A DNA stretch of 64,000 nt from Rhodococcus sp. ABRD24 (lineage in GTDB: Bacteria; Actinomycetota; Actinomycetes; Mycobacteriales; Mycobacteriaceae): NCBI RefSeq assembly GCF_004328705.1, contig NZ_CP035319.1, positions 4,402,001 through 4,466,000 on the forward strand, written 5' to 3'. Below the pieces are notes generated by a model. That model made no database searches. It saw nothing but the letters and a program-made list of their open reading frames with translations, and had not been told where the DNA came from. Position numbers and translations under genes: made by a program. Below, one piece after another: positions 46,882 to 57,914 of this stretch. Each line of letters starts with the position of its first letter. The first letter of the stretch is position 1.

Positions 46882-48273
46882 TCAGTTGCCGATGCCGCGG
46901 CTTCGTGCCTTGGTCATCAGGGCACGTCCGTCCTCGAATCGCAGGAATCCCGCGGTGACTGCACGGTCGGTGGCGTCGGAGAACTGAGTCACGTACGTAT
47001 CCTGATCCGGGTAGAGCACGGCCAGCGTCTCGGTGTCGAGGGGCACGGTCGCCCCGTTGTTCGGCACCTGCACGGTCTCGCCGGTGAGAGTTGCGACCGG
47101 CACGTCGACATCCGGAGTGCGGACGCCGCCGAGCGCGTTGCCGAAGCGGTCGCGGACGATAGTGTCCGCGGTGGTCTCGATCGGATCGGCGGATGCGGGT
47201 GCGACGCCGTCGACTACCCAGTGCCGTAGCGCGCGCAGCGCCGCCGACACGACCTGGCTCTGCGGTCCGTCATTGACGATCGGGATCAGCGTGCTCAGCT
47301 CCCGGATCGCCCCGAACTGGGCGGTGTACTGCGGGTGCAGGATTCGCAGCGAGTGCGCGTCGGAATGGGCGGCACCGGCAATTTCCCACGTACGGATGCG
47401 CTCGGTGTCGGGCTGGCGAGCCGCGACGAACGAGTGTGGTCCGGGACCGCCGCCGAGCTCGAACAGGTCGGTCTCGGTGACCACCTGGAACACCGGCACC
47501 TCGAGATCCGTGCGTACACGCGCGGGGGCGATGCCCGTCGGGCCGCCCGGTCCGTCGAGTGTGGCGTCGCCGATCGGAGCACCTGCTCCGGCGCGGCCGT
47601 GGATGAACAGGCCGTCGAAGATCCGGGCCGAGGGCTGGATGGCGTTGGCATAGGTGAGCATCCGGAAGCCGGCCTGCGACTGTCCGACTGCGAGCAGCTT
47701 CTCCACCACCAGACCCGAGAGCGGGTTGGCGCCGCGGGGTGCGCGGATCGCGGCACCGGCCTGGGAGAAGATGTCGTACGAGTACGCATCGCCCGGATGA
47801 TGCAGCGGACCGTAGCGCTGCGGATCCCAGGCCTTGAGTCCGACGACGTTCGGCCCCAGAGGGCTGCCGCCGGTGCTGTTGACACCGGCCGCCTGAGCGG
47901 AGACGCCCACCCAGGCGTAGCCCTGCAGCAACTCCGGGTACATGTATCCGAAGTCGACGTCGGTATCGACGTTGCCGCTCACGTCGAGCCACTCGACGAC
48001 GACGGTGCCGTTGAAGCGGCCCGGGTCCTTCGGCATACGGACCAGGAGGCGCGTGCGGTACGGGGCCTGCCCGGCCTCGGTCACCGCCCAGCTGCCGTCG
48101 GAGTCCCAGGCCCCATCCTCTCGGTATGCGGTCGCGGTGCCGCTGAGGAAGAATTCCCGTTCGCTGTAGCCTGCCGCCGCCAAATCGACTGACGTCGATG
48201 TCCCTGGTGACCCGTGCATCCCGTCCGGGATCCGATTGCGGTCGTTGCCAAAACTTCGTGCGTGCAGGAACAT
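46882..48273 (-). CDS. alpha/beta-hydrolase domain-containing protein
   Basis: 463 residues, a large alpha/beta hydrolase of the group with the elbow LAVGQSQAGFR (Ser in GQSQAG). Earlier PGRFNGTVVVEWLDVSG and HPGDAYSYDIFSQAG are family-typical, as is a late AAHSDAH with the likely catalytic His. No signal peptide is seen. Substrate unknown; relatives act on esters or lactones. It has its own dyad upstream and follows the sulfotransferase gene by 116 bp in the same direction. Confidence 0.8.
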   Translation of the reverse strand: MFLHARSFGNDRNRIPDGMHGSPGTSTSVDLAAAGYSEREFFLSGTATAYREDGAWDSDGSWAVTEAGQAPYRTRLLVRMPKDPGRFNGTVVVEWLDVSGNVDTDVDFGYMYPELLQGYAWVGVSAQAAGVNSTGGSPLGPNVVGLKAWDPQRYGPLHHPGDAYSYDIFSQAGAAIRAPRGANPLSGLVVEKLLAVGQSQAGFRMLTYANAIQPSARIFDGLFIHGRAGAGAPIGDATLDGPGGPTGIAPARVRTDLEVPVFQVVTETDLFELGGGPGPHSFVAARQPDTERIRTWEIAGAAHSDAHSLRILHPQYTAQFGAIRELSTLIPIVNDGPQSQVVSAALRALRHWVVDGVAPASADPIETTADTIVRDRFGNALGGVRTPDVDVPVATLTGETVQVPNNGATVPLDTETLAVLYPDQDTYVTQFSDATDRAVTAGFLRFEDGRALMTKARSRGIGN

Positions 48274-48389: not shown

Positions 48390-49553
48390 TCAGCCCACCG
48401 CGTAGTCTCCGAACCGCTCGTCGACCTCTCCGGCGGTGAGCCCATACTCCTCGAGCGTGTACCGGTGGGCCGGCTTGCGGCTGCCGGAGCGGCTCTCGTC
48501 GTGCATATCCGTCATGGCCCGGCGCGCCGGCTCGGACATCGGAATTGCGAAGTGGGAGTAGATCTTCTCGACGGTCCCGAGGGGATCACCGACGAAGTCG
48601 CCGTATTCGACGTCGATGAACTGCGCGGGGTCGTAGTTGACCCGTGCCGCCGTGAAGTCCTCGAGCCCGCGTGCCCACAGGTCGAGCTGGCTGCGTCCGA
48701 TCACGTCACCGCGGAACTTGTTCGACCAGCCCTCGGTAGCGTGCTCGGCGAGGCTGCACACCGATGGGATGATCGTGCTCGGCGGCCGGTGGGTCTGCAC
48801 GATCAGCGCGTCGGGGTACACCGCCATCAACTCGTCGAGTGCGAACAGATGGCTGGGATTCTTGAGCACCCACCGCCGGTCCCGGTCCGGTAGGCCGATC
48901 AGCTGCAGGTTCTTCTTGTGTCGGGCGTATGCGTTGGTCCAGTCCTGGCCCTGCAGCCACTGGGAATAGGTCGGCAGGTTCGCCAGGCACTCGTAAGAAA
49001 CCGACTTGAATGTCTGACGCAGCAGTTGCCAGCACTCCTCGACCTCGCCGGCCGACATGTAGTGCACGCCCATGAACTCGGGGTGGTCCACGTGATGCTG
49101 ACTGAACGTGGCCTCGATCTTCTGGAACACGGGATTGGCGCCCCATGTATCGCGCGGCGGTCGCGGCTGTGGCATCTCCGTCAGCCACATCTCGAGGCCC
49201 TGGTGCGCGGGATCGGCCGTCAGTAGGCGGTGCAGCGCGGTGGTGCCGGTACGTGGCAGCCCGGTGACGAAGATCGGGCGATCGATCGGTACGGCGGTGT
49301 GCTCGGGGAACTGTTTCCATGCGGCCTCGGACAGCAGCCGGGCAACCAGCGCACCGCGCAGGAAGACGCGGGAGATCTTGCTGCCGAACGGGGTCAGATC
49401 CTCGTCTTGGGCGTACGAGTCGAGCAGGACGCCGAGGGCCTCGGTGTAGTCGTCGACGCCGAAGTCGGTGAGGCCGGTCATCCTGGTCGCGGACGCGTGT
49501 AGGTCTTCGACGGTGCCGACCGTGGTGCGATCGGGTCGGGTACTTTCAGTCAT
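48390..49553 (-). CDS. PAPS-dependent sulfotransferase
   Basis: 387 residues of the sulfotransferase family 3-like group found in mycobacteria and rhodococci. FVTGLPRTGTTALHRLL (95-111) is the 5'-phosphosulfate loop, and the later VLKNPSHLFALDEL and VQTHRPPSTIIPS contribute the 3'-phosphate site. It transfers sulfate from PAPS to a hydroxyl of an unknown, probably lipid, acceptor. It ends a three-gene leftward operon; its donor PAPS is made by the divergent cysD-cysNC genes under a matching promoter. Confidence 0.88.
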   Translation of the reverse strand: MTESTRPDRTTVGTVEDLHASATRMTGLTDFGVDDYTEALGVLLDSYAQDEDLTPFGSKISRVFLRGALVARLLSEAAWKQFPEHTAVPIDRPIFVTGLPRTGTTALHRLLTADPAHQGLEMWLTEMPQPRPPRDTWGANPVFQKIEATFSQHHVDHPEFMGVHYMSAGEVEECWQLLRQTFKSVSYECLANLPTYSQWLQGQDWTNAYARHKKNLQLIGLPDRDRRWVLKNPSHLFALDELMAVYPDALIVQTHRPPSTIIPSVCSLAEHATEGWSNKFRGDVIGRSQLDLWARGLEDFTAARVNYDPAQFIDVEYGDFVGDPLGTVEKIYSHFAIPMSEPARRAMTDMHDESRSGSRKPAHRYTLEEYGLTAGEVDERFGDYAVG

Positions 49554-49578
49554 GTTGCTCGCGTAACCCTTTCGGCCT

Positions 49579-50361
49579 TCAGTGGTGGAACTCGCCGCAG
49601 TTGACGTCCAGGCACTGCCCGGTGATGGCGTTCGCCATCGAGGAGGCGAGGAAGATCACCGCGTCCGCGACTTCCTCGGTTTCCGGTAGCCGCTTGAGGT
49701 CGGTACCGGCCGCGGTGTGCTCGTAGATCTGCTCGACGGTCGTACCGAACTTCTCGGCCTGGTGCGCGAAGTACTTTTTCAGGGTGTCGCCCCAGATGTA
49801 TCCGGGTGCAACGGAATTGACTCGAATGCCCTTGGGGCCGAGTTCGGTGGCCAGGGACTGGGACATGGCCAGGAGTGCGGCCTTGGCCATCTTGTAGCTG
49901 CCGTAGCGCTCCTGAGAGTGCCGCAACACCATCGAATTGATGTTGACGATCGACCCGTTGGTCTGCTCGAGTGCGGGCGTGAACAGCTGTGTCAGTCGCA
50001 GTGCGCCCAGCACCGTCAGCTCGATGCTGTCACGGATGTGCTGGTAGTCGGTGCGCTCGAGCGGCTTCATCGATGGAATCGAGAATGCGTTGTTCACCAG
50101 GGTGTCGATTCGGCCGTACGCCTCGAGGCCCGCCGATACCAGGTTCTCGGCCGAGGCCTGATCGGTGATGTCGGTGGACACCGTGACGGCCCGGCGACCC
50201 AGGTCGGTCACCTCCTTCGCCACCTCGTCGAGTCGGGACTGTGTGCGAGCGGCCAGCACCAGATCGGCACCGGCACCCGCGCACTGTAGCGCGAGCGTTC
50301 GGCCCAGTGCGGGGCCGACGCCCGAGATGACTACCACTTTGTCCTGCAACAGATTTGTCAT
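49579..50361 (-). CDS. SDR family oxidoreductase
   Basis: 260 residues of the classical short-chain dehydrogenase family. The nucleotide loop reads GVGPALGR (14-21) instead of TGxxxGxG-like forms, NNA at 90-92, and the catalytic Ser143, Tyr156 and Lys160 are present (SMVLRHSQERYGSYKMAK). It reduces or oxidises a carbonyl/hydroxyl of an unknown substrate, perhaps preparing the hydroxyl for sulfation. It starts 2 bp after the DUF1214 gene and lies 25 bp before the sulfotransferase gene. Confidence 0.88.
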   Translation of the reverse strand: MTNLLQDKVVVISGVGPALGRTLALQCAGAGADLVLAARTQSRLDEVAKEVTDLGRRAVTVSTDITDQASAENLVSAGLEAYGRIDTLVNNAFSIPSMKPLERTDYQHIRDSIELTVLGALRLTQLFTPALEQTNGSIVNINSMVLRHSQERYGSYKMAKAALLAMSQSLATELGPKGIRVNSVAPGYIWGDTLKKYFAHQAEKFGTTVEQIYEHTAAGTDLKRLPETEEVADAVIFLASSMANAITGQCLDVNCGEFHH

Positions 50362-50363
50362 GT

Positions 50364-51530
50364 CTACCCCAGCATCCGGTTGGCGACGGCGGCCTGGCGT
50401 GCCCCGATACGGGCAGCGAAGTCCTCCGGCGTGATCTTGTTCTGTTCGTAGTACGGCAGTTTCGAGGCAACCTCATCCAGCGAGACGACCTCGAGGGTGG
50501 GCCCGTCGGCGGCGGACAACTCGCGAGAGACCCGCTGCCACCGGAACTGGAGGTACCCGCGGGCATGGCCGAGCGTCTCGATCCAGTTGGTGACACCGGG
50601 GTTGCGTTCGCTGATCACGAGCCGGATGTTCCCGTCCGGATCGATCTGCGATTGGCTCGCATTGAGCGAAGTCTGGTGGTTGATGTAGTCGAGCGAGATG
50701 TACCACAGGCTCCCCAGCTGGAAGCCCTGGTATGGGACGTCTGCTGCCGGAACGGTGATGATCATCGCCTGATCGTCGGCGAGCTCGTAGTGGCCAGCCG
50801 ACGAATACTGCGTCGCGAGGCCGCCGGGGGTCAGTCGCGGCTCGACCATCGTGTTGACCGGGAGGTTCAGGTAGAACCACTCCGGGAACTGGAGCCACGT
50901 CTTGACCCGGCTCACCAGCGCGCGGCCGGCGCGGGCGAAACGCTTCTCGGTCTCCTCCCGGGTGAGCGGCGGCGGCGGAGTGCCCGCGACGTCGACGCGT
51001 TCGATCCGGATTGTGCCGCGCTGCTCGGTCCAATCGTTGTACACCTCGCGAACCACGAGCTGCGTCGAACCGGGGGCGAGGGTGAAGTAGTTGGTGCGGT
51101 CGTTCGCGGGCCCGGGACCGAACCAGGCAACGAATGAGCCGTCCTCCTCGATGTACAGTTCGCGGTCGTCGAAGGCTATCTCGCTACCCGGCACGTTGGA
51201 GTTGGTGTAGTTGCCGCTGAGCACTTGGAAGCTGAGATCGACTGTGCTGCCGCGTCGTCCGGTCACTTTGTACTCGGCGTCATCGTTGATGCGCGCACCG
51301 AAGTACATGGTGTCGGGGTTGTCGAGGCCCATCTTCGTGAAGGGGCCGGTGCCCTGGATGAAGTTCGGGTGCGTCTTCTCCGTGGCCCAGGCCGCATGGA
51401 CTGTGGCGAGGATTCCGCCGGCCAGGTATTGGTAGCCCTCGAGAAGATCCTGTTCGGTCCGGATGTGCGGGGCGCTCTCGACCAGCTTCTCGGCCTTGGC
51501 GATGGCCGCGGTCAGGGGATCGGTCAGCAC
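50364..51530 (-). CDS. DUF1214 domain-containing protein
   Basis: 388 residues. The C-terminal part carries the DUF1214 beta-rich domain (region around PNFIQGTGPFTKMGLDNPDTMYFG and later GFQLGSLWYISLDYINHQTS). No signal peptide. Function unknown; homologues often travel with SDR and sulfotransferase genes in actinobacteria. It starts at GTG 51530 with GAGGAG a few bases upstream; the frame extends further but not as protein. It is the first gene of the leftward sulfation operon. Confidence 0.8.
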   Translation of the reverse strand: MLTDPLTAAIAKAEKLVESAPHIRTEQDLLEGYQYLAGGILATVHAAWATEKTHPNFIQGTGPFTKMGLDNPDTMYFGARINDDAEYKVTGRRGSTVDLSFQVLSGNYTNSNVPGSEIAFDDRELYIEEDGSFVAWFGPGPANDRTNYFTLAPGSTQLVVREVYNDWTEQRGTIRIERVDVAGTPPPPLTREETEKRFARAGRALVSRVKTWLQFPEWFYLNLPVNTMVEPRLTPGGLATQYSSAGHYELADDQAMIITVPAADVPYQGFQLGSLWYISLDYINHQTSLNASQSQIDPDGNIRLVISERNPGVTNWIETLGHARGYLQFRWQRVSRELSAADGPTLEVVSLDEVASKLPYYEQNKITPEDFAARIGARQAAVANRMLG

Positions 51531-51551
51531 TGAAGACTCCTCGCGTCCGAT

Positions 51552-51567
51552 GGTACAAATATGTACC
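51552..51567. promoter_or_regulatory. GGTACA-N4-TGTACC palindrome (site 1)
   Basis: GGTACAAATATGTACC lies between the leftward promoter and the DUF1214 start. The same palindrome recurs before cysD (52665-52682), at a similar distance from its promoter. It is probably an operator or RNA-level site shared by the two operons. Confidence 0.6.
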
Positions 51568-51593
51568 TGTGTGGTAGACCTGATGATGATCCG

Positions 51594-51623
51594 ACCATAG
51601 AACGTGTTCCAAGGGGTGGTCAA
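51594..51623 (-). promoter_or_regulatory. leftward promoter of the DUF1214-SDR-sulfotransferase operon
   Basis: On the minus strand TTGACC (51623-51618), an 18-base spacer and TATGGT (51599-51594). The spacer holds GGAACACGTTCT (51610-51599), a near-palindrome. The promoter matches the cysD promoter base for base over most of its length. Its -35 overlaps the iclR start codon. Confidence 0.65.
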
Positions 51624-52585
51624 TGAATTCGCGACAATCCGGTGCGGCGGACTCGGCTGCCGGCGCAGATATCGACGGCGCCGGTGCGCGGGGCCGGAAG
51701 TCTCCACCGACGGAGCGCGTCGTCCAGGTGCTCGACTACCTCGTGGCCCGGCCGGACAAGCGGTTCGGGCTCTCGGAACTCGCCCGCGCGCTGGATATCT
51801 CGAAACCGACCTGCCTCGGCATCCTGTCGGCGCTCGTCGCCGCCGGCTACCTCACCCGTGACGGCGCATCCAAGCTGTACGGCCTGGGTCCGGCACTGAT
51901 CGCCGCGGGACGCGCCGCCCAGCACGGGTTCGCGATGGGACCCATTGCGCGCGAACAGCTCGAGCGGATCACCGCGGAGTTCGGGACAACCTGCACGGCA
52001 TCGACAGTGGTCGGCGACCAGATCACGGTGCTCGAGGTGACGGCGGTGCCCGGTGCTCCCACGCGGGCCAAGGTGGGACAGGTGTATCCGTTCGCGCCGC
52101 CGGTGGGTCTGATGTATGTGCTGTGGGGCAGCGACGAGGGGCTCGAGGCGTGGCTACGGCGCGAACCCGCGCTGCCGGTGCGCCTCGACCGCGACCATCT
52201 ACGGCGCGTCGTCGACGAGTGCCGGGACGCGGGCTATCTGGTGGAGACGCTGACGACCGTCGGGCAGCGGCTGCACTCGCTTATGGCCGGCGTCGCGACG
52301 CACGACCTGCCACCCGAGGTCCGGGAACTGCTGGGTGAGGTGGTCTCGAGCCTCGGGGAGCGGGTGTACCTCGCGCGCGATGATCACGAGGGCGAGCATC
52401 CGGTCAATCTCATTGCGGCGCCGACCTACGATGCCGAGGGTCAACAGGCGCTGGTGCTGACCATCTATGTGGGAGCGACCATCGGTCGCGCCGAGATCGA
52501 TCGGCGCGCTGCGGCACTGACCGCGGCGGCCGATGCGGTGACCGCGGCAGTCGGGGGTAGGCATCCGATGCGCACCCGCGTTTGA
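51623..52585 (+). CDS. IclR family regulator
   Basis: 320 residues. The N-terminal winged helix spans about 30-95 (ERVVQVLDYLVARPDKRFGLSELARALDISKP, LGILSALVAAGYL), and the C-terminal effector domain contains VLEVTAVPG and VGLMYVLWGS. IclR dimers bind small effectors. The ATG at 51623 lies inside the -35 element of the leftward promoter, so its own binding or transcription will affect that operon. It precedes cysD by 117 bp and is the natural regulator of both sulfation operons, whose promoters share one palindrome. Confidence 0.9.
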   Translation: MNSRQSGAADSAAGADIDGAGARGRKSPPTERVVQVLDYLVARPDKRFGLSELARALDISKPTCLGILSALVAAGYLTRDGASKLYGLGPALIAAGRAAQHGFAMGPIAREQLERITAEFGTTCTASTVVGDQITVLEVTAVPGAPTRAKVGQVYPFAPPVGLMYVLWGSDEGLEAWLRREPALPVRLDRDHLRRVVDECRDAGYLVETLTTVGQRLHSLMAGVATHDLPPEVRELLGEVVSSLGERVYLARDDHEGEHPVNLIAAPTYDAEGQQALVLTIYVGATIGRAEIDRRAAALTAAADAVTAAVGGRHPMRTRV

Positions 52586-52606
52586 CCGTCTGCTGGGCGG
52601 GAGTCA

Positions 52607-52636
52607 TTGACCACGGCATGGAACGCGTTCTATTCT
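52607..52636 (+). promoter_or_regulatory. rightward promoter of the cysD operon
   Basis: TTGACC (52607-52612), 18-base spacer, TATTCT (52631-52636). GGAACGCGTTCT (52620-52631) in the spacer equals the leftward site but for one base. The conserved block ATTGACCAC also matches, so the two promoters are twins read in opposite directions. Confidence 0.65.
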
Positions 52637-52664
52637 CGGCGCAGAATTCAATTTCGAACCACCT

Positions 52665-52682
52665 CGGTACAAATGTGTACCG
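52665..52682. promoter_or_regulatory. GGTACA-N4-TGTACC palindrome (site 2)
   Basis: CGGTACAAATGTGTACCG, a perfect dyad apart from its 4-base centre, lies about 20-40 bases before the cysD start. It is the counterpart of the 51552-51567 site. Confidence 0.6.
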
Positions 52683-52702
52683 AACTCGAGAGTGAGCTGC
52701 AG

Positions 52703-53629
52703 ATGAGCATGCTGCATTCCCCGCCGGCCTACGAGCTGACCCATTTGGGGGCGCTGGAGGCGGAGGCGGTCCATATCTTTCGTGAGGTTGCCGCGACATT
52801 CGAGCGTCCGGTGCTCCTGTTCTCCGGTGGCAAGGACTCCGTGGTGATGCTGCACGTCGCTGCCAAGGCGTTCTGGCCCGCGCCGCTGCCGCTGCCGGTG
52901 ATGCACGTCGACACCGGGCACAACTTCGATGAGGTCATGGACTTCCGCGACCGCACCGTCGACCGCCTGGGGCTGAGGCTTGTCGTCGCGAGCGTCGAGG
53001 AGGACATCGCCGCCGGACGTGTCGTCGACGAGAGCGGCCCGCGCGCGAGCCGCAACCGGCTGCAGACCCACGCACTGCTGCGCGGTATCCGGGACAACAA
53101 ATTCGACGCCGTCTTCGGTGGTGCCCGCCGCGATGAGGAGAAGGCCCGCGCCAAGGAGCGGGTGTTCAGCTTCCGGGACGAGTTCGGTCAGTGGGATCCG
53201 CGTGCACAGCGTCCCGAGCTGTGGAGCCTCTACAACGGCCGGCACCGCAAGGGTGAGCACATTCGGGTGTTCCCGCTGTCGAACTGGACCGAACTCGACA
53301 TCTGGCAGTACATCCTCGAGGAGGGCATCGAGCTGCCGTCCATCTACTACGCGCACCGCCGGCCCGTCGTCGAGCGCGATGGAATGCTGTTGGCGCACAC
53401 GCGGTTCCTCACGTTGCTCCCGGGGGAGGAGCCCCACGAGGCGCTGGTCCGCTTCCGTACCGTCGGCGACGCGACGTGCACCGGCTGCGTCGAGTCGTCG
53501 GCGGGCACCGCGGCCGAGGTCGTGACCGAGGTGGCCGCGAGCCGCATCACCGAGCGCGGCGCGACCCGCGCCGACGACCGGATCTCCGAGGCCGGGATGG
53601 AAGACCGCAAGAAGGAGGGCTACTTCTGA
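52703..53629 (+). CDS. cysD: sulfate adenylyltransferase subunit 2
   Basis: 308 residues from ATG 52703 (MSMLHSPPAYELTHLGALEAE). The PP-loop ATPase motif is LLFSGGKDSVVMLHV and the family C-terminus AGMEDRKKEGYF is present. With CysN it forms APS from ATP and sulfate. An in-frame ATG at 52673 would add 10 residues but lies within the operator palindrome. It is coupled to cysNC by TGATG. In this context it feeds the sulfotransferase more likely than cysteine synthesis, since no reductase genes follow. Confidence 0.93.
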   Translation: MSMLHSPPAYELTHLGALEAEAVHIFREVAATFERPVLLFSGGKDSVVMLHVAAKAFWPAPLPLPVMHVDTGHNFDEVMDFRDRTVDRLGLRLVVASVEEDIAAGRVVDESGPRASRNRLQTHALLRGIRDNKFDAVFGGARRDEEKARAKERVFSFRDEFGQWDPRAQRPELWSLYNGRHRKGEHIRVFPLSNWTELDIWQYILEEGIELPSIYYAHRRPVVERDGMLLAHTRFLTLLPGEEPHEALVRFRTVGDATCTGCVESSAGTAAEVVTEVAASRITERGATRADDRISEAGMEDRKKEGYF

Positions 53630-55473
53630 TGCCGCAGCTACTTCGTGTGGCCACCGCGGGTAGCGTCGACGACGGCAAGTCGACGCTCATCGGCCGGTTG
53701 CTCTACGACTCCAAGTCGATCTTCGAAGATCAGCTCGAGGCGATCGAGCGCAGCAGTCGCGAACGCGGCGACGAGCACACCGATCTGGCACTGCTCACCG
53801 ACGGGTTGCGCGCCGAGCGTGAACAGGGCATCACGATCGACGTCGCACACCGCTACTTCGCGACTCCGCATCGCAAGTTCATCATCGCCGATACTCCCGG
53901 GCACGAGCAGTACACCCGCAACATGGTCACCGGGGCTTCGACCGCGGACCTTGCGCTGATTCTCGTCGACGCCCGCAAGGGGGTGCTGGAGCAGACTCGG
54001 CGGCACGCCTTCCTGTCGACACTGCTCGGCATCCCGCACCTCGTACTGTGCGTCAACAAGATGGACCTCGTCGACTGGTCGCAGGAACGGTTCGACGAGA
54101 TCAAGGACGAGTTCGGTCAATTCGCAACGAAACTCGACGTCCACGACCTGACGTTCATCCCGGTCTCGGCTCTCGGGGGCGACAATATCGTTTCCCGAAC
54201 CGAGAACATGCCATGGTACGAGGGTTCGTCGCTGCTGCATCATCTCGAAGAGGTGCACATCGCGTCCGACCGCAACCTCATCGATGCTCGGCTGCCCGTT
54301 CAGTACGTGATCCGCCCGCAGCGCCAGACGGATGCAGATCTGCGCGACTTCCGCGGCTACGCCGGCACCGTCGCCAGCGGCGTGTTCAAGCCCGGCGACG
54401 AGGTCGTCGCGCTGCCGTCCGGTTTCACGTCGACAATCGCCGCGATCTGGGGGCCGGGCGGACGCCCGCTTCAGGAGGCGTTCGCACCGTCGGCGGTGTG
54501 TGTGCAGCTGTCCGACGACCTGGACGTCAGTCGTGGCGACACTCTGTGCCGGCCCAACAATCGTCCCCTCGTCGGGCAGGAGCTCGATGCGATGGTCTGC
54601 TGGCTCACCGAGCAGTCGACGCTCGACGAGGGCGCCCGGTACACGGTGCTGCACACCACGCGCGCGACGAAGGGGCAGATCGTGCGCCTCGACTACCGTC
54701 TCGATATCAATACGCTCCACCGAGAAGAGACCGCACAGTCGTTGAAGCTCAACGAGATCGGACGAATTCAGCTCCGTACCCAGCAGCCGCTGCTGTTCGA
54801 CCCCTATCGGCGTAATCGCGTCACCGGCAGCTTCATCCTGGTCGACGATTCGACCGGCAACACCGTCGCCGCCGGCATGATCACCGGGCCGACGCTCAAG
54901 GAATCCAAGGTGGTCTGGCATGCGGCAGCCGTGTCCCGCGACGAGCGGGCTACTCGCGGCACCACGGTGTGGCTCACCGGGCTGTCGGCGTCCGGGAAGT
55001 CCACCGTGGCAGTGGAACTCGAACGCCGGCTGGTCGCGGCGGGGGTGCCCGCCTACCGGCTCGACGGCGACAACCTGCGGCATGGGCTCAACGCAGACCT
55101 CGGGTTCAGTGCTGCGGATCGCGCCGAGAACGTCCGGCGGGTCGGTGCCGTCGCGCAGTTGCTCGCCGATTCGGGGATGGTGGCTGTCGCGTCGCTCATC
55201 AGCCCGTACCGCGTGGACCGGGACCGGGTTCGGCAGCAGCATCTCGATGCCGGGCTGCCGTTCGTCGAGGTGTTCGTCGATACCCCGATCGAACAGTGTG
55301 AGGCGCGGGACCCGAAGGGCATGTACGCCAAGGCGCGGGCCGGGGAGATCACGGGTTTCACCGGCGTCGACGACCCCTACGAAGCGCCCGAGGGCGCTGA
55401 ACTGGTGCTGCGGCCCGAGGACGGCGATCCGGTCGCGCAGGCCGCCAAGATCATGGAGTATCTGAACCTGTGA
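53629..55473 (+). CDS. cysNC: bifunctional sulfate adenylyltransferase subunit 1 / APS kinase
   Basis: 614 residues, a CysN-CysC fusion like that of mycobacteria. The N-terminal ~430 residues are the GTPase: AGSVDDGKSTLIGRLLYD (P-loop), DTPGHEQYTRNM, and NKMD. The last ~175 residues are APS kinase with Walker A LSASGKSTVAVELE and LDGDNLRHGLN. Together with CysD it makes PAPS, the donor for sulfotransferases. It overlaps the CysQ-type gene by 4 bp. Confidence 0.95.
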   Translation: MPQLLRVATAGSVDDGKSTLIGRLLYDSKSIFEDQLEAIERSSRERGDEHTDLALLTDGLRAEREQGITIDVAHRYFATPHRKFIIADTPGHEQYTRNMVTGASTADLALILVDARKGVLEQTRRHAFLSTLLGIPHLVLCVNKMDLVDWSQERFDEIKDEFGQFATKLDVHDLTFIPVSALGGDNIVSRTENMPWYEGSSLLHHLEEVHIASDRNLIDARLPVQYVIRPQRQTDADLRDFRGYAGTVASGVFKPGDEVVALPSGFTSTIAAIWGPGGRPLQEAFAPSAVCVQLSDDLDVSRGDTLCRPNNRPLVGQELDAMVCWLTEQSTLDEGARYTVLHTTRATKGQIVRLDYRLDINTLHREETAQSLKLNEIGRIQLRTQQPLLFDPYRRNRVTGSFILVDDSTGNTVAAGMITGPTLKESKVVWHAAAVSRDERATRGTTVWLTGLSASGKSTVAVELERRLVAAGVPAYRLDGDNLRHGLNADLGFSAADRAENVRRVGAVAQLLADSGMVAVASLISPYRVDRDRVRQQHLDAGLPFVEVFVDTPIEQCEARDPKGMYAKARAGEITGFTGVDDPYEAPEGAELVLRPEDGDPVAQAAKIMEYLNL

Positions 55474-56606
55474 GCACCGATGCCGACTTCGCGGCCGAGC
55501 TGGCCACCCGTGCGGGGGAGTTGCTCGTGGAACTGCGGTCCCGGGCACTGGGGGAGGCCCCGCTCGAGAAGGCGGCAGCCAAGGAGCTGAGCCGGCGCGG
55601 TGACAAGGCTGCGAATGCGCTGCTGCTCGAGCGGCTGGCCGCACAGCGCCCGGACGACGCCGTGCTCTCCGAGGAATCCGCGGACGACGCGGCGCGCCTG
55701 GGTAATCCGCGGGTGTGGATCATCGACCCGCTCGACGGCTCCCGCGAGTACGGACTCGCCGGGCGCACCGACTGGGCGGTACATGTCGCACTGTGGGAAC
55801 GCGGCGCGGGGATCGTTGCGGCGGCCGTCGCGCAGCCCGCTCGGGGTGAGGTGTACGTCAGCGGCAGGGACCGCGCTGTCTCCTCGGACCGCGCCCGTCC
55901 GCTGATCCTGGTGAGTGACAGCCGTCCTCCGGAGTTCATCGGCGCGCTGGCCGAGCGGGTCGGCGCCGATGTTGCCCCGATGGGCTCGGCGGGCGCCAAG
56001 GCGATGGCCGTGCTCCGCGGCGAGGCCGACGCCTACGTCCATGCAGGTGGGCAGTGGGAATGGGACTCGGCAGCACCGGTGGGCGTCGCGCTTGCGGCCG
56101 GCCTGCACTGTTCTCGGATAGACGGAACGCCGTTGCAGTACAACGAGGTCCATCCGTATCTGCCCGACGTCCTGATCTGCCGTCGCGACCTCGCGGTCCC
56201 GCTCCTCGCCGGGATCGCCGAGGAGTCCGGCGGACCGGTCGACAGCCCCCGCGTGGCAATGGCGCGGGAGTACGTGATGTCGCTCGTCACACACGACACG
56301 AGCAAGGTTCGCCTCGCGCGGCACTGTCACCGATACGAGAACGGTCAGCGCACAGGAGATTCCGGTGACGAGATCCGGGGGATGCTGGAAACCGGAGAGC
56401 AGTACCGGTCGATCAGCGCGGTCCGCGATCTCGACTTCCGAGAGTGGGGATCGGACGTCGTCGCACGATTCCTGCTCGATATGACGGCCGGCCGCGACAC
56501 GCTCACCGTCGCGGTCACCGAGCACTTCTCGATACCTAGCGCAGAGATCGACGCGATCACCGCGGTCATCGAGCCGCAACACTTGGGTGTCCGGACTGCC
56601 AGGTAG
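55470..56606 (+). CDS. cysQ: CysQ-type 3'(2'),5'-bisphosphate nucleotidase with C-terminal extension
   Basis: 378 residues. The N-terminal ~250 are an inositol-monophosphatase-fold nucleotidase: SEESAD (metal site), WIIDPLDGSREYG (catalytic), and WEWDSAAPVGVA near 195. It would hydrolyse PAP, the inhibitory by-product of sulfotransfer, back to AMP. The remaining ~125 residues (AREYVMSLVTHDTSKVRLA and onward) are not part of that fold and form an unassigned domain. A role in recycling PAP for the sulfotransferase fits the neighbours. Confidence 0.88.
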   Translation: MSTDADFAAELATRAGELLVELRSRALGEAPLEKAAAKELSRRGDKAANALLLERLAAQRPDDAVLSEESADDAARLGNPRVWIIDPLDGSREYGLAGRTDWAVHVALWERGAGIVAAAVAQPARGEVYVSGRDRAVSSDRARPLILVSDSRPPEFIGALAERVGADVAPMGSAGAKAMAVLRGEADAYVHAGGQWEWDSAAPVGVALAAGLHCSRIDGTPLQYNEVHPYLPDVLICRRDLAVPLLAGIAEESGGPVDSPRVAMAREYVMSLVTHDTSKVRLARHCHRYENGQRTGDSGDEIRGMLETGEQYRSISAVRDLDFREWGSDVVARFLLDMTAGRDTLTVAVTEHFSIPSAEIDAITAVIEPQHLGVRTAR

Positions 56607-56615
56607 GCTCGCCCT

Positions 56616-56879
56616 GTGGCATTCGACGACGACGAACGGGCGGCTCTGCTGGCATTGAAGGGCGTCGGACCGACCGTGGTGCGACGGCTCGAGGAGATGG
56701 GCCACGACAGCTTCGACGCGCTGCGTGCCGTTGGTTCCGACGAGATCCTGGATGCCGGTGCGGCCATGACCGGATCGACGTGCTGGCGCAACAGTCCTCA
56801 GGCGAGGGCCGCGATCGACGCGGTGCTCGAGTTCGCGCGAGCAGGACGAGAACCTGGCGGCGGGTCGAAGACGCTGTAG
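56616..56879 (+). CDS. helix-hairpin-helix protein
   Basis: 87 residues from GTG 56616. A helix-hairpin-helix motif is visible in LLALKGVGPTVVRRLEEMGHDSF (about 11-33), the sort that binds DNA non-specifically. A conserved WRNSPQARAAI follows. The function is unknown. It lies 9 bp after the CysQ-type gene and is likely co-transcribed. Confidence 0.75.
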   Translation: MAFDDDERAALLALKGVGPTVVRRLEEMGHDSFDALRAVGSDEILDAGAAMTGSTCWRNSPQARAAIDAVLEFARAGREPGGGSKTL

Positions 56880-56888
56880 AACGAACGG

Positions 56889-57914
56889 ATGAAGGTCTAC
56901 TCCGGCACGGACCCGCAGATCGACCTCCGCAATGTCGGCGCGTACGCGAAGCGCGTCGAGGCCGTCGGCTACGACGGCTTGCACGTCTCGGAAACAGTGC
57001 ACGACCCGTTCCTGCTCGCGTTGCTCGCGTTGCAAGCCACTCGACGGATTACCGTCCGCACCTCGGTCGCGCTCGCCTTCGTGCGCAGCCCGCTGCTTAC
57101 CGCCTACACCGCATGGGATCTGTCGAAGATGTCGGGCGGCCGGTTCCACCTCGGGTTGGGCAGCCAGGTCCGGCAGAACATCGAGGAACGGTACGCAATG
57201 CCGTGGAGCCCGCCCGCTGACAGAATGCGCGAGTACATAGGTGTCGTCCGTGCGGCGTTCGACACCTTCCGGTCCGGTGAACTCGTTCCATACGAGGGGG
57301 ATCGGTACCGCTTCACCCGGATGCAGCCGTACTTCAACCCGGGGCCCGACACCGCAACGGTGACGCCGCCGATCTACCTCGGCGGCGTCGGGCGTCGGAT
57401 ATGCGCTGTCGCTGGGGAACTCGCGGACGGACTGCTCACCCATCCCACCAACTCGGATCCGCAGTATCTGCGCACGGAGTGTCGGCCGGCGCTCGAGTCG
57501 GGTGCGACCGCTGTCGGCCGCACACTCTCAGACTTCGAGGTCGTGGCCGGCCTACAGGTGATCACCGGCCTCACCGACGCCGACGTCGCCACCGAGCGCG
57601 AACGGCGCCGACGACTGTTCGCATTCCTGTACTCCACGCCGGCGTATCGGCCCGCGCTCGACCGGTACGGACTCGGCGACCTGCAGGCGCGGCTCGCCGC
57701 GATGGCTCGCCGGGACGACTGGAGTGCACTGCCATCCGTCGTCACCGATGAGATTCTGGAGCAGTTGGTTCCGACGGCGCGTTACGGCGAACTTCCCGTG
57801 GTGGTGCGCGAGCGACTCGCCGGTGTCGCAGACGGTGTCACGCTCGCGCTGCCCGAGGATCCCGCGCATGATCGCCGGATGGCCAGGGTGGTCGCGGAGT
57901 TGCGCGCCGGATAG
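56889..57914 (+). CDS. LLM-class F420-dependent oxidoreductase
   Basis: 341 residues of the luciferase-like monooxygenase TIM-barrel family in its F420-dependent branch. MKVYSGTDPQIDLRNVGAYA starts it; VGYDGLHVSETVHDPFLLA and MSGGRFHLGLGSQVRQNIE are the cofactor and substrate segments typical of the group, and PPIYLGGVG is later. It would move hydride between F420H2 and an unknown compound. It closes the cysD operon (9 bp after the HhH gene); a link to the sulfated product is possible but unproven. Confidence 0.85.
   Translation: MKVYSGTDPQIDLRNVGAYAKRVEAVGYDGLHVSETVHDPFLLALLALQATRRITVRTSVALAFVRSPLLTAYTAWDLSKMSGGRFHLGLGSQVRQNIEERYAMPWSPPADRMREYIGVVRAAFDTFRSGELVPYEGDRYRFTRMQPYFNPGPDTATVTPPIYLGGVGRRICAVAGELADGLLTHPTNSDPQYLRTECRPALESGATAVGRTLSDFEVVAGLQVITGLTDADVATERERRRRLFAFLYSTPAYRPALDRYGLGDLQARLAAMARRDDWSALPSVVTDEILEQLVPTARYGELPVVVRERLAGVADGVTLALPEDPAHDRRMARVVAELRAG

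Follow-up and report, generated by a model that had tools for sequence, protein, structure and literature searches.

In a 64,000-nucleotide stretch of the Rhodococcus sp. ABRD24 genome (hereafter the window; contig NZ_CP035319.1, positions 4,402,001 to 4,466,000), an operon for a DUF1214-like protein, a short-chain dehydrogenase (SDR) and a putative sulfotransferase, together with a second operon of cysD, cysNC and cysQ-like genes, flank a single gene for an IclR-family regulator, at the gene positions given in a preliminary description of this DNA. We consider it likely that these genes form a sterol-responsive sulfation unit placed under the cholesterol repressor KstR and equipped with its own supply of 3'-phosphoadenosine 5'-phosphosulfate (PAPS). 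This reading draws on the genes, the duplicate sulfate activation in the genome, the predicted boxes and palindromes in front of both operons and their conservation in relatives, all of which are established at the level of sequence. Note that papers are cited below by PMC number for passages of their text.

The two operons appear to start from twin promoters. Each is predicted to carry TTGACC, an 18-base spacer and then TATGGT for the DUF/SDR/sulfotransferase operon (−35 at 51618–51623, overlapping the iclR start codon, and −10 at 51594–51599, minus strand) or TATTCT for cysD (−35 at 52607–52612 and −10 at 52631–52636, plus strand), and in both a 14-base box begins 12 bases past the start of the −35 element. 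The twin promoters with their shared GGAACRCGTTCT, already pointed out in the preliminary description, are indeed an exact pair genome-wide: over 5,098,030 bases, the full 26-base pattern is matched exactly at two places, the next three best places show 3 mismatches, and the reversed control of the pattern yielded none. Taken alone and with up to 2 mismatches, GGAACRCGTTCT is just mildly above chance in the window (19 matches for 11.1 expected, a number reached by 2 of 100 shuffles), and the strength of the observation thus rests on the exact pair.

With one base added on either side, GGAACRCGTTCT becomes TGGAACRCGTTCTA, which fits the KstR motif TnnAACnnGTTnnA (PMC1995591, PMC8228715). The predicted boxes lie between the −35 and −10 elements, at 51598–51611 for box 1 (TGGAACACGTTCTA on the minus strand) and at 52619–52632 for box 2 (TGGAACGCGTTCTA). 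A genome search for TNGAACNNGTTCNA returned 30 exact places, 2 of them in the window, and 200 places per strand with one mismatch against 83 for the reversed control; 18 of the 28 places outside the window were examined for their neighbours. The genome's own KstR gene (NF033703, 336.6 bits for a cut-off of 280; the four best PDB matches of its protein are three chains titled KstR and 3mnl, a probable TetR-family regulator) has the same box type upstream, and another box is flanked on one side by a CYP125 gene (E 1e-197 to CYP125 structures) and on the other by a gene for a steroid 3-ketoacyl-CoA thiolase (726.6 bits, cut-off 515). Further boxes neighbour a ferredoxin-reductase-type gene, acyl-CoA dehydrogenases, an SDR, an MlaE-type permease and an HsaD-like hydrolase gene (248 bits, below the cut-off of 400), and some of the 18 places have no evident sterol-type neighbour (e.g., L107 and L119). 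Box 1 is letter-identical to the boxes at cyp125/steroid thiolase (L115), at an FAD-binding protein gene (L120) and at a zinc alcohol dehydrogenase gene (L122), and box 2 to the box at a thiolase gene (L111). On a matrix built from 12 box sites elsewhere in the genome, the window boxes score 24.9 and 24.0 bits, for a leave-one-out range of 19.3–27.6 among the 12 sites; no other matrix site was found in the window down to 17.3 bits, and the best score in the cysteine cluster described below was 7.4. By sequence, GGAACRCGTTCT is a KstR box, because it matches the boxes at kstR and cyp125 and persists in front of the DUF gene in all 12 relatives without IclR.

The boxes were then compared across relatives, using the best 80 of 164 loci found with the sulfotransferase as query (L055, where the contig ends, was excluded from the promoter counts, and L047 from alignment A2). 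Among these 80 loci, cysD is present at 74, cysNC at 75, iclR at 67 and cysQ at 49, an LLM-type gene at 5, and the complete set of stf, sdr, duf, iclR, cysD and cysNC at 63. With at most one mismatch, the box was found in 64 of 67 DUF upstream regions with IclR and in 12 of 12 without, and in front of cysD in 43 of 65 with IclR (61 of 65 when 2 mismatches were allowed) and 9 of 9 without, while shuffled upstream regions gave a box with one mismatch in at most 0.7% of cases. By the matrix, a box of at least 10 bits stands in front of the DUF gene in 76 of 79 cases and in front of cysD in 70 of 74; in the control, made of one shuffle each, at least 8 bits were reached in 3 of 79 and 0 of 74, respectively, with a highest value of 12.8. 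Exact boxes are concentrated in these regions, with 86 in 33,230 bases of DUF/cysD upstreams versus 4 in 1,603,354 bases elsewhere in the same loci. Of nine further genomes, 7 carry an exact DUF box, and the cysD box was present with at most one mismatch in all 6 that have cysD. Part of the conservation of the −35 element of the DUF promoter may come from iclR itself, because this element overlaps its start codon. As a separate observation, two Antrihabitans loci (L056 and L087) have no SDR gene between DUF and sulfotransferase genes and no KstR box upstream of cysD.

The link with sterol catabolism extends to gene content. In a sample of 199 genomes of the order, a sulfotransferase match at E 1e-60 occurred in 54, of which one (G040, 38% identity) was set aside; KstR scored over its cut-off in 53 of the 53 remaining genomes and in 59 overall, and 140 of 140 genomes without KstR also had no sulfotransferase orthologue. 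One genome, G193, provides an independent case: among the 29 genomes sampled from its genus, no other has KstR over the cut-off and no other has the sulfotransferase, its kstR and operon lie ~9 kb apart with a gene for a 3-oxosteroid 1-dehydrogenase (876 bits, cut-off 788) in the interval, and a lipid-transfer protein gene is found nearby. For orthologues of the DUF/SDR/sulfotransferase operon, KstR binding in vitro and derepression have been shown by others. Indeed, the Rv3531c/Rv3532 site was bound in gel shifts, as were 12 of 13 Mycobacterium tuberculosis sites in total, and MSMEG_5932, listed as the Rv3531c orthologue, was 6-fold up in an M. smegmatis kstR mutant (PMC1995591). The published MSMEG_5932 primers encode TSLNGT and KGYLQF, and both TSLN and GYLQF are found in the consensus of the DUF1214-like family. 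By its box, the cysD operon would come under the same repressor. The suggestion of a sterol-like product made in the preliminary description is strongly backed by regulation.

The second pillar of our reading is a PAPS supply kept apart from cysteine synthesis. Three PF01507 proteins were found in the genome, namely an adjacent pair at 644.7–646.1 kb and the window CysD, and the pair belongs to a second set at ~643–648 kb (L018) with the order sulfite reductase-cysH-cysD1-cysN1-CbiX-type chelatase. Cysteine synthesis through adenosine 5'-phosphosulfate (APS) reductase requires no PAPS. In this set, the sulfite reductase is a 581-aa NIR_SIR protein (188.5 bits), and CysN1 has no APS-kinase domain, aligning to the window CysNC only over residues 3–419. 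CysH bears the APS-reductase motifs CCALRKVAPL, SIGCAPCT and KTECGLH, which were taken from PMC8557817. The APS-kinase part of the window CysNC had no other match in a search of its own genome, so that no APS kinase other than the window CysC was found. A separate cysH-cysD pair was also present in 14 of 15 relatives checked, the exception being an Amycolatopsis genome (G213). Since a separate APS-reductase route exists, the window CysD and CysNC are not expected to be needed for cysteine, and the sequence comparison supports a supply of PAPS that is distinct from the cysteine route. The dedication of these cys genes to PAPS, already proposed from the window alone, is supported by this result, and the second cysD/cysN set that had been suggested as a check does exist, meaning that the window genes are not the only cysDN genes of the strain. 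We also observed that four relatives (G199, G200, G204 and G205, the genomes of L019, L022, L042 and L044) carry an extra strong PF01507 protein (191–195 bits) away from the cys clusters, with none like it among the three of the window genome.

The sulfotransferase (48390–49553, minus strand) belongs to the PAPS-dependent Sulfotransfer_3 family (PF13469, 199.7 bits, cut-off 27) and is the sole PF13469 match in the genome; it carries the loop GLPRTGTTAL and matches PDB 2zq5 with an E of 2.2e-171 over residues 5–382, and R101, G103, T104 and T105 of the phosphosulfate loop, together with R256 and S264, are invariant in 19 orthologues. Upstream of it on the same strand lie the SDR gene (49579–50361; PRK07890 subfamily, NF005909 429 bits for a cut-off of 258, PDB 3ucx E 1.5e-115) and the first gene of the operon, coding for the DUF1214-like protein (50364–51533; 21.3 bits, below the Pfam cut-off of 25), whose model, folded from an alignment of 36 sequences picked from 45 listed, matches 6ans, a protein with no assigned function. 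On the plus strand, cysD2 (52703–53629; ATP sulfurylase small subunit, TIGR02039 457.1 bits, cut-off 396.6) is followed by cysN2C (53629–55473; ATP sulfurylase GTPase subunit fused to APS kinase, NF004035 969.1 bits, cut-off 715), and the motifs of CysD (SGGKDS), of the CysN GTPase (GSVDDGKST) and of APS kinase (GLSASGKST) are present. The third gene (55470–56606) encodes a CysQ-like 3'-phosphoadenosine 5'-phosphate (PAP) phosphatase, with 89.9 bits for TIGR01331, under the cut-off of 228.8, and with a structure match over residues 3–251 (E 1.7e-71) to 5djf, titled 3'-phosphoadenosine 5'-phosphate phosphatase.

Beyond the part matching 5djf, CysQ has a C-terminal extension of ~126 residues (~252–378; window positions 56223–56606), which has no significant Pfam match and is covered in the majority of Rhodococcus copies. 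Behind cysQ, with gaps of ~10 bases, come a small gene and a gene for an F420-type LLM oxidoreductase (56616–57914; the LLM gene at 56889–57914, plus strand). As the LLM gene adjoins cysQ in only 5 of the 80 loci (L024–L028), the F420/LLM step is not a core part of the unit; among the SDR, DUF1214 and F420-type steps listed in the preliminary description, the SDR and DUF1214-like genes are present, the latter with its score below the cut-off, and the F420 step is not conserved. At the other end, the sulfotransferase gene is followed in the window by an Abhydrolase_10 (PF20091) gene (46882–48273), which is also found behind the sulfotransferase in 10 of the 80 relatives, most of them belonging to Prescottella or the R. 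globerulus group.

Altogether, the following mechanism can be proposed. KstR would occupy the box between −35 and −10 of both operons and block both promoters. After sterol intake, a sterol acyl-CoA ligand, for which 3-oxocholest-4-en-26-oyl-CoA has been named (PMC8228715), would lift KstR repression, and both operons would be made together. CysD and CysNC would convert sulfate and ATP to APS and then to PAPS beside its user, the sulfotransferase would pass the sulfo group to a hydroxylated, probably sterol-derived compound to give a sulfate ester, the SDR would set the hydroxyl or keto state of that compound and CysQ would clear PAP, with cysteine being served by the separate cysH-cysD1-cysN1 operon, which would use APS directly. 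The local IclR protein probably binds a second pair of sites upstream of both first genes, described below, and would act as a second gate sensing a metabolite of the unit.

The iclR gene (51623–52585, plus strand; PF09339 HTH 33.5 bits, cut-off 22) encodes a regulator whose effector domain scores 23.8 bits, for a Pfam cut-off of 24. It stands between both boxes, and IclR proteins bind short palindromes, which are two points in favour of IclR binding to the GGAACRCGTTCT twins, as the preliminary description had it. We regard this version as highly improbable, since the same box is found at kstR and cyp125, the twins fit the genome's own KstR boxes in sequence and score, and the DUF boxes are kept in every one of the 12 loci without IclR, in whose genomes no IclR orthologue was found at E 1e-30 (a search that had no positive control of its own); boxes that persist where IclR is gone argue that IclR is not their binder. 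A better candidate is a second twin palindrome, GGTACANNNNTGTACC, missed by the preliminary description, which has exactly two copies in the 5.1 Mb genome, at 51552–51567 and 52666–52681, 56 and 59 bases past the start of the two −35 elements. In the form GGTMCANNNNTGKACC with at most one mismatch, it was found in 66 of 67 DUF upstreams with IclR versus 1 of 12 without (L076), and in 39 of 65 cysD upstreams with IclR versus 2 of 9 without (L076 and L091); its exact copies in the 80 loci amount to 76 in DUF/cysD upstreams and none outside. Because the presence of the palindrome follows IclR in DUF upstreams, it is the likelier IclR operator, and the GGTACANNNNTGTACC pair is the best candidate for this role; judged by these counts, its candidacy is well supported for the DUF operon and less so for cysD in Nocardia.

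The other explanations concern what the unit does. KstR control and the PAPS supply could both hold with a non-steroid acceptor, e.g., an envelope lipid, a quinone or a polyketide formed at times of abundant sterol-derived propionyl- and acetyl-CoA, since many KstR genes serve general lipid metabolism (PMC1995591) and in mycobacteria another sulfotransferase is believed to transfer sulfate to a menaquinone following a P450 step (PMC6469627). We find this unlikely, though worth keeping in mind: in a survey of 155 neighbouring open reading frames (at least 150 aa each, taken from 14 of the 80 loci), each was present at 37 of the 80 loci or fewer, no further conserved partner naming the compound was found, and the recurring neighbours resemble a MarR/enoyl-CoA hydratase/hydroxyisobutyrate dehydrogenase block, not lipid assembly; in addition, the unit lies within a sterol island in G193. 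It is very unlikely that the cys genes are there to handle sulfite or to meet PAPS needs in general with the sulfotransferase as a passenger, as might be thought from a similar set of R. qingshengii IGTS8 proposed for indirect sulfite oxidation to PAPS (PMC8557817), because the IGTS8 gene order fits the Stf0 locus L176 and not the window locus, one R. qingshengii genome has both sets at different places, and KstR-type boxes at both operons tie the cys genes to the sulfotransferase. Finally, the sulfotransferase homologue might transfer no sulfate and have another role, given that the matched structure 2zq5 is titled only 'putative uncharacterized protein', that the passages of the literature on the family show no transfer activity and that Rv3529c (Stf1) interferes with host MyD88 signalling in work cited in PMC8882603; the invariance of the phosphosulfate-loop residues, R256 and S264, together with the presence of cysD at 74 of the 80 sulfotransferase loci, makes this extremely unlikely.

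Several observations weigh against our reading of a KstR-controlled sulfation unit. The 12 matrix sites were selected with the same consensus, some of them sharing a neighbouring gene; a consensus match is no guarantee of binding, as 1 of the 13 M. tuberculosis sites remained unbound (PMC1995591), and the KstR regulon includes genes with no proven sterol action. No clear box was found in 3 of 79 DUF upstreams (L027, L047 and L057) and 4 of 74 cysD upstreams (L038, L056, L087 and L095), many Nocardia cysD boxes are weak (13.7 bits), and among the nine further genomes the DUF box was not found in L169 and L174, while L168, L166 and L173 carry the operon and the box with no cysD at the locus. Of the 65 cysD upstreams with IclR, 26 have no palindrome, most of these in Nocardia, and the palindrome is kept without IclR in L076 and L091. 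The co-occurrence P of 5.7e-42 ignores shared ancestry, which inflates any P value; the sulfotransferase match of G193 stops at residue 336 of 387; and 6 of the 59 KstR genomes have no orthologue, so that the sulfation step is not needed by all sterol users.

Overall, a sterol-derived alcohol is, on balance, the acceptor that we favour, since the regulon serves sterol use and the unit accompanies it; in our ranking it comes first as most likely, followed by a lipid or quinone built from sterol carbon. We suggest, more tentatively, that sulfation may be an unrecognised regulated branch of actinobacterial sterol metabolism, in which KstR would tie sterol intake directly to sulfate activation and an intermediate of the sterol pathway would be turned into a sulfate ester; such an ester might serve for storage, signalling or export, or be an activated intermediate that loses its sulfate later. 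Work on cholesterol breakdown in actinobacteria concerns lung pathogens as well as the industrial production of steroids. If our reading is true, cells would use up ATP and sulfate for a sulfated product just while they feed on sterols. This would suggest a role in metabolism for a mycobacterial sulfotransferase whose structure is solved, and it would indicate that sulfation has been overlooked as a step of sterol metabolism in bacteria, here in a host related to Rhodococcus equi.

The claim in the preliminary description that such a route would be new was too strong, in view of a Bacteroides cluster (PMC9417993), the R. qingshengii set (PMC8557817, L176) and the KstR control of the mycobacterial DUF-SDR-sulfotransferase operon, known at its first gene since 2007 (PMC1995591). 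What appears new is a cysD-cysNC-cysQ operon under KstR together with the IclR palindrome pair. In passages from the open-access literature, to which the search was confined (subscription papers lie outside it), no statement linking KstR to PAPS supply was found; KstR and cysD co-occur in PMC3916317 and in PMC2151136, PMC9283954 and PMC7846781, in the last three of which the words stand apart in the passages concerned, and KstR and sulfotransferase co-occur in three papers, PMC6469627 among them. The word 'sulfotransferase' is absent from 20 sterol papers of the same search, and the stem 'sulf' from the main texts of PMC1995591, PMC4810484 and PMC4881515. The M. tuberculosis CysD-CysNC complex and CysQ are the same enzymes by sequence, as the window proteins match the CysN/CysC chains of 4bzp and 4rfv and the PAP phosphatase 5djf.

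These three entries are presumably all from M. tuberculosis; compared with that organism, the window set is a second, sulfation-linked one, the cysteine synthesis of the window genome having its own cysD1-cysN1. The mycobacterial operon of the KstR regulon, whose order we take to be Rv3531c-Rv3530c-Rv3529c, is expected to hold the DUF, SDR and sulfotransferase orthologues, as in the window, and 2zq5 is presumably Rv3529c. The latter is the protein named Stf1 (PMC8882603). At L168, from a genus taken to be Mycobacterium, iclR, duf, sdr, stf and the box are found as in the window; with no cysD/cysNC at that locus, there would be no linked PAPS supply under the same repressor, unlike in the window. 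In Bacteroides thetaiotaomicron, the BT_0411-BT_0416 cluster, likened here by its description, also has a sulfotransferase beside putative PAPS genes; Bt_0412 and Bt_0416 are induced by cholesterol, and the product, cholesterol-3-sulfate, has been shown, whereas the passages concerned describe neither a KstR/IclR layout nor the breakdown of sterols (PMC9417993). Within the same genus as our strain, one R. qingshengii genome carries a third set, Stf0-CysD-CysNC with a convergent sulfatase gene (L176:6417–11459), while the window genome has two CysD only. The Stf0-CysD2-CysN2C-sulfatase set of R. qingshengii IGTS8, whose gene order L176 matches, is likewise an extra CysD/CysNC set linked to a sulfotransferase (PMC8557817), but it differs from the window unit by its PF09037 sulfotransferase and its other locus, with CysD 64% and CysNC 50% identical to those of the window.

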